A stretch of 64,000 nt of DNA from positions 1 through 64,000 of IMG/VR virus record IMGVR_UViG_3300031951_000022, one strand, 5' to 3'. A program made the translations under genes and the position numbers. The stretch's first letter is position 1, and every line of letters starts with the position of its first letter. The DNA comes from a virus. This document shows, piece after piece, positions 26,260 to 28,846 of the stretch. Under the pieces are notes generated by a model. The model saw nothing but the letters and a program-made list of their open reading frames with translations. It searched no databases and had not been told where the DNA came from.

Positions 26260-26696
26260 TCCATACCTCCCATTAGCCACTTTTTAACATCCATAGGATG
26301 AGTACTACTAAATCTTTTAGAGGTACTAATATAACCAGCGGCAAGATCTAAAATAACATTCTGTTTTTGAATAACTCGTTCTAGATCCATATTTCTAGAC
26401 TTAAGATTATAATTATCTTGTCTACAGCTTTGAATTTCTTTATTTGCTTGAGCCATAGTATCTACTAGTCTATCAATTTCTTGATTTTTTTCTTGTTCTA
26501 GTTTTTCTAGTTTTTCTTCTAATTCTTTATAACTTTTACCCGGAGCATAAACCGTATGAGTAAATTTTTGTAACTCATCTTGATAAAGTCTAAGTTCTGT
26601 AATAATCTGTCTTAGTTCTTTATTTTTTTGAATTAATTCATCACGACTTAAATTATCATAATGAGTGCCTTTTGCAACGTCTGAATAATTATTCAT
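26256..26696 (-). CDS. Coiled-coil protein
   Basis: 146 aa with long heptad segments (ELIQKNKELRQIITELRL, ELEEKLEKLEQEKNQEID). Overlaps the next gene by ATGA. Structural or scaffold-type role possible; not recognised. Confidence 0.65.
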   Translation of the reverse strand: MNNYSDVAKGTHYDNLSRDELIQKNKELRQIITELRLYQDELQKFTHTVYAPGKSYKELEEKLEKLEQEKNQEIDRLVDTMAQANKEIQSCRQDNYNLKSRNMDLERVIQKQNVILDLAAGYISTSKRFSSTHPMDVKKWLMGGME

Positions 26697-26707
26697 TTAT
26701 TATCTCC

Positions 26708-27284
26708 TTAATTTTCTTGATTAAATAGTTTTTGTAGTTCTTTGAAACTCCAAGGCTGACCGAATGGTTTATTATAGTTAATCGTATTATCAACACCAAC
26801 GTCCAGAGTTAATCTGTTTGATATTCTATCTTCATGATCTAATTTAGAGTGAACATGACCATAACAATGAAAACTGCCTTTATGACTAGAAGGCCAACTT
26901 CTGTGAGGATAATGAGATAAAAATATTTTTTGGTTACAATGTATTATTTCTTTAACATCTTGTACTGAACTAAATCCATTCATGTCAACAGTATTATCAT
27001 CTAGATAAAAATCTTTTCTGCGGTCATGATTCCCCCATATTAAATGAACATCGCGGCAATTTATGCGAAGTCTATAGTCTAGTGGTTTTTTACCTTTAAA
27101 ACAAAAATCACCAAGTATGTATAGAGTATCATCATATCCAACAACTTCATTTATATTATCAAGAATAGTCTTGTTCATATGATGAACATCTTCAAATGGG
27201 CGATTACAGTATTTGATTATATTATTGTGACCTTGATTAGCCCGAAGGCTAACCAAAGTGAGTATCAGATATAAAATATATCAT
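26708..27284 (-). CDS. Metallophosphoesterase, coding gap at 27230-27251
   Basis: Calcineurin-like phosphoesterase: GDFCF, GNHDRR, SHYPHRSW, GHVHS are intact downstream. The first metal motif DTH lies in the 5' part, MIYFISDTHFG (27284-27252), which stops at TAG. The frame resumes at GGT-CAC (HNNIIKYCNRPF) after 22 nt. Take-off GGT and landing GGT are identical and enclose a UUCG hairpin, as in translational bypassing of T4 gene 60. Without bypass the product lacks DxH. Alternative: a broken gene translated from a downstream start. An HNH gene precedes it. Confidence 0.7.
27230..27254 (-). other. Candidate translational bypass site
   Basis: Order on the minus strand: take-off GGT (27252-27254), stop TAG (27249-27251), a stem TTAGCC-TTCG-GGCTAA that includes the stop codon, AA after a C, and landing GGT (27230-27232). 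Eight base pairs close a UUCG tetraloop (one G-U). Confidence 0.6.
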
Positions 27285-27288
27285 AATA

Positions 27289-28143
27289 TCACTTATTGTT
27301 TTTCCTTTCATATCTTTGTCCAGCTTTATATGCTAAAATGAGCGTTCTGCAAAGTTCTTGTTCCGACCAGTTTCCTGCGTAAGATTCAATCTTATCAAAT
27401 AACTCGTCTATTGTCAAGTGGTCAGCATCAATATATCTTCCATTTTTCTTTTTAATGTTATCTTTTGCTGTCAAGATTTGACAATTTGCCGGATGCCTTA
27501 AGACTTGTGGAAATACACCCAGACTAAATCCTGTTCTTCTAGACAACATATGATCTCTAACAACACCACTTGTATTATTTTTGTTATGAAAAACTCCATA
27601 CTTTTTAAGTAATCTTAATTGTTTTTTGCAATCTATAAGATCAAACATTTTCTCAATCCAATCTGCTTCTTGATAGTATATTTCAAAATCGCTTTTTTCG
27701 GATATGGGAATCCAATAGCCGTTATTTTCCATAGTTTGTCTATATTTTTGTAAATACTCTGGATTTTCCCATTTTTGTTTAGATTTAATACCAATAAGAT
27801 CTTTTGATTTTTTTGTATGAGGTCTAGAATAAGACTGTTTATCTCTATGCTTATGCATAGCTTCTATTCTTTCTTGATTAAATTTTTTACCTCTATTTGC
27901 TGTGCCATATTTATACCTAAGTTCATCAGTAACTTTTGATCTTATTAATTGTGATTGTTTCTTTTTTTGTTGTTCAGACCACCGTTTATTGAAATTAGGA
28001 TTGTTTTTTCCTTTCATTGAGGATTGCATATTTATTGCATAACATTCTTTACTACAATACACAGACTTTGCTTTCGCTTGTGAAGCATATCTATTGAATG
28101 TTTTATTACATACTGGACATTTTAATCTTAATAATTTAGACAT
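27289..28143 (-). CDS. HNH homing endonuclease with NUMOD-like repeats
   Basis: 284 aa. N-terminal zinc finger (CPVCNKTF, CSKEC), repeated K-basic helices like NUMOD3 (KYGTANRGKKFNQERIEAM), then an HNH core VVRDHMLSRRTGF, PANCQILTAKDNIKKK. It sits inside the metallophosphoesterase gene: the first 12 codons of that gene are present both upstream (28222) and downstream (27284) of it. RBS AAGGAG and a CTTTGGTGTAT motif upstream. Confidence 0.88.
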   Translation of the reverse strand: MSKLLRLKCPVCNKTFNRYASQAKAKSVYCSKECYAINMQSSMKGKNNPNFNKRWSEQQKKKQSQLIRSKVTDELRYKYGTANRGKKFNQERIEAMHKHRDKQSYSRPHTKKSKDLIGIKSKQKWENPEYLQKYRQTMENNGYWIPISEKSDFEIYYQEADWIEKMFDLIDCKKQLRLLKKYGVFHNKNNTSGVVRDHMLSRRTGFSLGVFPQVLRHPANCQILTAKDNIKKKNGRYIDADHLTIDELFDKIESYAGNWSEQELCRTLILAYKAGQRYERKNNK

Positions 28144-28183
28144 ATTATAATCTCCTTAAAAATATAATACACCAAAGTCTGAT

Positions 28184-28222
28184 TTAATGTCCAAAATGCG
28201 TATCAGATATAAAATATATCAT
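28184..28222 (-). pseudogene. Truncated duplicate 5' end of the metallophosphoesterase
   Basis: Encodes MIYFISDTHFGH then TAA. The nucleotide match with 27284-27252 is nearly exact, with silent third-position changes (ACG/ACT, CAT/CAC, GGA/GGT). Its ATG overlaps the stop of the 51-aa upstream gene, so it is probably the original start of the gene before endonuclease insertion. Confidence 0.75.
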
Positions 28223-28374
28223 GAAAAATACAAACCGTCTATCTTCTTGATAATGTTAATATAAACTTCTGGTTGCTGATGAATCTCAGTTCCTTCTGGC
28301 CCGTTATTTATTTTCTTAAGTTTATCTTCTACTAGTTCTCTTAAAATATCTAAATCTTGATTGGTTAGTTTCAT
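28219..28374 (-). CDS. Hypothetical helical protein
   Basis: 51 aa (MKLTNQDLDILRELVEDKL...). RBS AAGAG. Stop overlaps the ATG of the duplicated phosphoesterase 5' end. Confidence 0.65.
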   Translation of the reverse strand: MKLTNQDLDILRELVEDKLKKINNGPEGTEIHQQPEVYINIIKKIDGLYFS

Positions 28375-28384
28375 ATTTATCTCT

Positions 28385-28846
28385 TTACTGTAAGAATTTT
28401 TCTTTCATCAATCTATTTATTTGTAAAATATTTAATCCAACAACTTGTCCTGAATCGGTTCCAATATACAAATCTAAAACCCCATTAATATTTTTTACAT
28501 TAAAACTTTCATTTTGAAAAATTACTTCTATAGCATCCATATCTTCGCTATAAGAAGTTGCCGGAGTAAACTGACAAGGATTGTATTTTTTAAAATATTC
28601 ATCAACAGTCATGGTATTATAAACGCCACATTTTTCCAATTCTTTCCTAAAAGATTCATGTGCGTCTAAAACCCTATTAATATCAACGGCGTTTTGATGT
28701 CCTTTTAAGGGGTTATTATATTTGCCCCAACCACACCTATCATATAACTCTTGCATCTTAATATCAAGATCATCACTAAGTTCTTGATAAGTTTTGGGAG
28801 GAAACATCCAATCGAATAAACTAGTAAAACCTTTTAGGAGACTCAT
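28385..28846 (-). CDS. Hypothetical protein
   Basis: 153 aa. Mixed alpha/beta (FTSLFDWMFPPKTYQEL; VEVIF-like strands near the C-terminus). Overlaps upstream gene by 4 nt. Unrecognised. Confidence 0.65.
   Translation of the reverse strand: MSLLKGFTSLFDWMFPPKTYQELSDDLDIKMQELYDRCGWGKYNNPLKGHQNAVDINRVLDAHESFRKELEKCGVYNTMTVDEYFKKYNPCQFTPATSYSEDMDAIEVIFQNESFNVKNINGVLDLYIGTDSGQVVGLNILQINRLMKEKFLQ

Follow-up and report, generated by a model that had tools for sequence, protein, structure and literature searches.

To our knowledge, programmed ribosome bypassing in phages has been well studied essentially only in gene 60 of phage T4. As late as 2024, a paper named only T4 gene 60 and yeast mitochondria for bypassing, and the T4 elements that it describes include a 5' stem-loop and a take-off stem-loop (PMC11194080). 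Sliding has been attributed to refolding of the T4 stem-loops behind the ribosome (PMC11194080; PMC5009743). T4 bypassing strongly depends on a signal in the nascent peptide, some 30 residues from the P site; a mobile endonuclease origin has been cited, and the gap is viewed as protection against nuclease (PMC5009743). The byp elements of Magnusiomyces capitatus mitochondria are many and lie in different genes, with loosely matched take-off and landing codons (PMC5009743).

The window analysed here is a stretch of 64,000 nucleotides (IMG/VR virus record IMGVR_UViG_3300031951_000022, positions 1 to 64,000). A metallophosphoesterase gene on its minus strand is interrupted near the 5' end (Table 1). 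The initial annotation had described a 5' part, MIYFISDTHFG, ending in GGT-TAG and a continuation from GGT-CAC after 22 nt in another frame, with GGT as both take-off and landing codon. The coordinates were correct on the minus strand, and the GGT/GGT pair was seen in the window and in seven homologs. The gap opens with TAG (27251-27249) directly 3' of the take-off GGT and closes with the landing GGT (27232-27230) as its final three bases; coding resumes with CAC at 27229. The frame of ORF2 differs from that of ORF1, and the gap length is +1 relative to frame 0. ORF2 matched Metallophos_2 with a score under the gathering cutoff. The fused ORF1-ORF2 product aligned unbroken across the junction with PDB 1xm7 (SDTHFYHENII), a solved phosphoesterase-like protein, and motif I after a 22-nt hop reads DTHFGH.

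Table 1. Features of the interrupted metallophosphoesterase locus, in window coordinates.
Feature	Coordinates	Strand	Remarks
ORF1, MIYFISDTHFG, 11 codons	27252..27284	(-)	ATG 27284-27282; take-off GGT 27254-27252
22-nt coding gap, TAGCCTTCGGGCTAATCAAGGT	27230..27251	(-)	about 1 of 22 positions differs across 8 contigs
ORF2, rest of metallophosphoesterase, HNNIIKYCNRPF..., 173 codons + stop	26708..27229	(-)	
5' stem-loop, AAGUGAUAUUA...UGAUACUCACUU	27256..27294	(-)	z = -3.8; encloses ORF1 start codon
Take-off stem-loop, 13 bp, UUCG loop	27230..27259	(-)	take-off, stop, and landing codons all inside
Putative HNH/NUMOD3 homing endonuclease, 284 aa	27289..28143	(-)	upstream of ORF1
Truncated resident 5' end of phosphoesterase, MIYFISDTHFGH	28187..28222	(-)	followed by TAA (28222-28184 including TAA)
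Mobile cassette (inferred), 957 bp	27230..28186	(-)	endonuclease gene + recoded 5' copy + bypass gap

The locus shares with T4 gene 60 matched Gly take-off and landing codons, a UAG directly after take-off, a UUCG-capped take-off hairpin of near-identical sequence, a 5' stem-loop, an HNH-type endonuclease immediately upstream, and the interruption of a conserved enzyme gene. The differences were also clear. The window has a metallophosphoesterase with a 22-nt gap, whereas T4 gene 60 has a 50-nt gap; its ORF1 has 11 codons against 46 in T4, which leaves no room for a nascent-peptide signal (about 25–30 residues before take-off). Unlike T4 gene 60, the window lacks a 3' stem-loop signal and a Shine-Dalgarno-like GAG before landing, and its endonuclease family is unrelated to the T4 MobA type. 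The flush position of the 5' stem-loop at the take-off codon and the recoded duplicate of the target 5' end also set the window apart from T4 gene 60. Since two tests that define the T4 element failed (nascent peptide and 3' stem-loop), the locus is a variant and not the same element as gene 60.

The gene 60 homologs of Salmonella phage S16, Shewanella phage Thanatos-1, and Escherichia phage UoN_LG358_1 (Straboviridae) were also compared. Like the window, they have a GGT take-off codon and an HNH gene directly upstream; they differ in the interrupted gene (topoisomerase), a longer gap, and endonucleases that are not alignable with that of the window. The byp elements resemble the window in that short inserts with hairpins are bypassed (PMC5009743), but they work on mitochondrial ribosomes with relaxed decoding and are context-independent. 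The split nrdA/mobE of Aeromonas phage Aeh1 likewise has a free-standing homing endonuclease within a conserved gene; however, the Aeh1 nrdA halves are separate proteins, whereas in the window a new 5' end and a hop come with the cassette. We know of no T4-type UNCG hairpin in the M. capitatus byp elements.

A search of the viral collection with the query protein matched 24 loci. Four of them (L004, L005, L006, and L019) share the 22-nt insert, positioned at the identical codon, and pattern scans added three more (L041, L136, and L137). The insert was missing from the other relatives inspected, in which DTHFGH or its equivalent is read straight through. Since it occupies the identical codon in seven other phage contigs, the insert is not a sequencing error. 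The sequence GGTTAGCCTNCGGGCTAA was found in only 11 of 2.9 million viral contigs, and nine of these sites are mid-gene interruptions of otherwise continuous coding sequence; GGTTAGCCTNCGGGCTAAYT, two bases longer, had zero matches in 257 Gb of prokaryote genomes. Among the approximately 120 tblastn matches listed, no interrupted phosphoesterase was found in named phages, and all begin within or before motif I except that of Pseudomonas phage Henu5. In Henu5 (L221:290-310), the 5' end of the phosphoesterase is broken or missing beside an N, probably an assembly fault.

Conservation and selection on both frames were observed directly. In the eight insert-bearing genes, ORF2 had a mean pS of 0.66 and pN of 0.19 with synonymous sites near-saturated, and pairwise dN/dS of the downstream ORF was 0.07–0.22. 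In the gap, p was 0.05, against a downstream pS of about 0.66. This tight conservation is partly due to recent spread of the cassette, which counts against the bypass reading. ORF1 has 11 codons in all eight copies, and UAG stands directly after the take-off codon in every 22-nt copy. Frame 0 meets TAG and then TAA inside the gap (8/8), and a TAA just before the landing GGT closes the downstream frame in 7/8. The exception is the window, where the +1 frame is open through the gap. Because of the TAA in the other seven, +1 frameshifting or initiation upstream of the landing codon cannot yield the enzyme.

Internal initiation, with ORF2 translated by itself into a truncated enzyme, is quite improbable, as is assembly of two pieces in the manner of Aeh1 NrdA. 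A TTG opens the downstream frame across the gap in the window, and split genes made by homing endonucleases have already been described (PMC2988022). However, the TTG is found in the window alone, and the TAA closes this frame in the seven other copies. An in-frame ATG first occurs some 17 codons into ORF2, and uninterrupted relatives have it at the same position; the product would be without the DxH metal ligands. The conserved GGT pairing and the flush hairpins described below would also be needless for either form of this explanation.

The initial annotation had placed the stop codon inside a hairpin closed by UUCG, and none of 200 shuffles was as stable as this hairpin (z = -5.9). The hairpin core (27254-27235) is T4/S16-like. 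Its counterpart in T4 gene 60 is GGATAGCCTTCGGGCTATC, and S16 gene 60 has GGTTAGCCTTCGGGCTAATCA, letter-identical to the window over 21 nt; the likeness to T4 gene 60 is thus closer than had been recognized. Pairing was investigated in aligned copies from three gene families (phosphoesterase, glycosyltransferase, and gene 60), across which compensatory changes occur. In the 13-bp stem, 97.2% of cells were paired, with changes on both sides in 6 of the 13 pairs. The covariation score was reached by 0 of 500 shuffles, and sliding the partner by 1–3 columns lowered pairing to 19–49%. One flank letter of L004/L006 in the alignment does not agree with the record, but it lies beyond the helix and leaves the pair counts unaffected. 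The loop was UUCG or UGCG, both of the UNCG type, and UUAG in Thanatos-1. A search for a second copy of the hairpin in the same genome found none (single site). Looser hairpin patterns mostly gave transcription terminators or sites without continuing frames and were rejected.

The insert could instead be a scar in a decaying pseudogene. A stop and a frame change within a conserved enzyme motif would be expected of such a scar, and the interruption is rare overall, the intact form being the norm. The initial annotation had suggested comparing homologs without the 22 nt and searching related phages for the same gap with a covarying hairpin. Against a scar, the identical insert stands at the same codon in eight diverged contigs, the downstream ORF is under strong purifying selection, and the RNA structure covaries. 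A scar is therefore very unlikely.

It is extremely unlikely that the 22 nt are cut from the RNA, by intron-like or hairpin excision or as a group I intron remnant that still splices. The hairpin does place both GGT codons near each other, and a degenerate-intron origin has been proposed for the gene 60 gap (PMC5009743). However, no Rfam intron (Group I/II) matched over 26600-28600, even at a relaxed threshold, and a group I intron with an HNH ORF was rejected on this ground. The 22 nt are much too short for a self-splicing intron, gaps range over 4–26 nt of differing sequence, and a stop right after take-off with matched Gly codons is a hallmark of bypass. Next to no credence remains for +1 frameshifting at GGU_UAG or stop readthrough adding extra residues, for although 22 nt is +1 versus frame 0 and the +1 frame of the window is open across the gap, the stop codons (TAA in the +1 frame of 7/8 homologs, TAG and TAA in frame 0 of all) refute both for the 22-nt family, and they may still hold for the 4-nt gap of L158.

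The 5' stem-loop ends one nucleotide ahead of the take-off codon in the window, and the two hairpins fold side by side, mutually flush. The L004/L006 version is AAAGUGAGU...ACUCACUUU. Across the interrupted genes, the 3' arm stops at, or one base before, the take-off codon. The structure was present in 13/13 interrupted genes examined, including genes of unrelated sequence; by folding, it was lacking in 11 uninterrupted relatives and 3 resident remnants. When arms were swapped between families, the stability of own-arm pairing was beaten by just 6 of 5040 arm permutations. The evidence for the 5' stem-loop consists of folding and arm swaps only. A 3' stem-loop after landing was sought and not found, downstream folding being the same as in uninterrupted relatives, and no Shine-Dalgarno-like GAG was found before landing within the 22-nt gap. 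In the window (27282-27310), the SD-like AAAGGA is some 18 nt away from the ATG of ORF1, a start that the 5' stem-loop encloses; in several copies, the nearest SD-like stretch is about 18 nt from the ORF1 start. The endonuclease stop codon sits in the 5' arm of this stem-loop, and ORF1 initiation by coupling to that stop codon is possible.

The results suggested that the phosphoesterase is very probably expressed by programmed translational bypassing of 22 nt, although no protein, reporter, or ribosome-profiling data are available. No reading other than the hop restoring motif I, as inferred in the initial annotation, accommodates the conserved frames under selection, the stop codons within the gap in both relevant frames, the paired GGT codons, and a covarying hairpin of the T4 type. 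The hop remains an inference, as do its dynamics and efficiency. In the proposed mechanism, ribosomes would initiate at the cassette ATG, synthesize MIYFISDTHFG, and stall on GGT with tRNA-Gly in place, since the A site is filled by UAG and the take-off hairpin. The tRNA would let go of the take-off GGT, and the mRNA would slide by 22 nt as both the flush 5' stem-loop and the hairpin at take-off refold behind the P site. The tRNA would then re-pair with the landing GGT, and translation would go on as HNNIIKYC..., so that the enzyme is uninterrupted and keeps its motif I. Since ORF1 has 11 codons, a T4-type nascent-peptide signal cannot operate. The short ORF1, the absence of a 3' stem-loop signal, the GGA landing codon of L047, and the distant SD-like stretch count against bypassing.

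The homing endonuclease that the initial annotation had noticed is more than a neighbor: the hop is part of the endonuclease cassette. The 284-aa gene matched NUMOD3 weakly, just under the cutoff, and its identification as a putative HNH homing endonuclease is inferred from the C-terminal motif. Relatives were found in L005 (71% identity), L047 (45%), and L029 (49%); a search for more relatives gave only 3 other viral contigs and zero in prokaryote genomes. Common ancestry with MobA was unsupported, with no meaningful alignment to the gene 60-adjacent enzymes; the best alignment with the S16, UoN, and Thanatos-1 endonucleases had an E of 0.008 over 51 aa. T4 MobA is annotated as a pseudogene.

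The left cassette boundary is marked by the TAA after the resident stump (slash: GGACAT/TAAATC in the window, GGGCAT/TAAATC in L005, and GGTCAT/TAAATC in L047) and is the same in the three insertions. Empty sites were found in L007-L018 and L020-L026, in keeping with fixed-site insertion. The duplicated 5' end was observed directly. ORF1 copies of the window and L005 are 33/33 identical while the resident stumps differ at 8/36, so the endonuclease and the recoded 5' copy move together. A 5' copy and nearly the whole gap are common to L004 and L006, whose downstream genes are far apart. In the protein tree, insert-bearing and insert-free genes were mixed, and well-supported branches forced at least two changes. 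The best explanation is that a cassette inserted after codon 12 of the phosphoesterase and brought the recoded 11 codons and the 22-nt insert. The nuclease target is presumed to be CAYTTTGGN/CAY, split in two (slash) by the insert. The cassette would not cut itself, as the insert keeps the target halves apart, and from this a self-protection role is inferred. If the 22 nt were left out, joining the 5' copy to the gene would restore the insertion site. The inferred role parallels the protection against nuclease ascribed to the T4 gap (PMC5009743).

Related elements were observed in other phages. L047 has a phosphoesterase, a related endonuclease, and the same hairpin, with a 26-nt gap from GGT to GGA. 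In L079 (10190-10300), a glycosyltransferase-like gene (RSGAFG/DNIILTPV, slash at the gap) is interrupted by 21 nt, from GGT to GGC; the same UNCG hairpin recurs there, next to a flush 5' stem-loop, and no endonuclease was found nearby. L029 (2750-3830) has a related HNH gene upstream of a phosphoesterase that reads GAT-ACC-TGA and, 8 nt later, ACT-CAT, and its start codon is enclosed by a long stem that reaches as far as the take-off codon. The phosphoesterases of L157 (1320-1400) and L158 (5388-5450) have GGT-TAG in the same motif with gaps of 5 nt and 4 nt, respectively. Both have a 9-bp stem-loop flush with GGT and no take-off hairpin; L158 lacks a matched landing codon, and +1 frameshifting might operate there. 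These short gaps (4–8 nt) are less certain, come from single contigs, and could be accidents. In Campylobacter phage vB_CjeM_WX1 (L217:795-3365), nrdA is interrupted by an HNH gene distantly related to that of the window; bypass was rejected there, as the flanks look like intein halves.

A tentative proposal, given somewhat less than an even chance, is that these elements form a modular phage bypass family independent of the nascent peptide. Its common core would be a flush 5' stem-loop and an immediate stop, with the UNCG hairpin optional and gaps of 4–26 nt; it would have arisen as self-protection of unrelated homing endonucleases and moved into other genes (the glycosyltransferase of L079). 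If this is true, mRNA refolding behind the P site, and not the nascent peptide, can suffice for ribosome hopping.

The flush 5' stem-loop, the duplicated recoded 5' end, and the related elements in other genes and phages are additions to the initial annotation. No earlier report was found in the literature searched, whose scope excluded subscription journals (the main T4 mobA paper among them). With a second family, replicated in nature, comparative evidence (conservation and covariation) becomes available on which mRNA parts matter. The much shorter hop with an 11-residue peptide makes the claimed need for a nascent-peptide signal directly testable. An endonuclease and a ribosome hop have been paired more than once, with unrelated nucleases, which supports hopping having evolved so that homing elements enter conserved coding sites without killing the gene. 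Gene 60-type bypass hairpins were also seen beyond T4 in S16 (L151), Thanatos-1 (L149), UoN_LG358_1 (L150), and L069. In T4-like phages with such hairpins, the ORFs are annotated as separate fragments.
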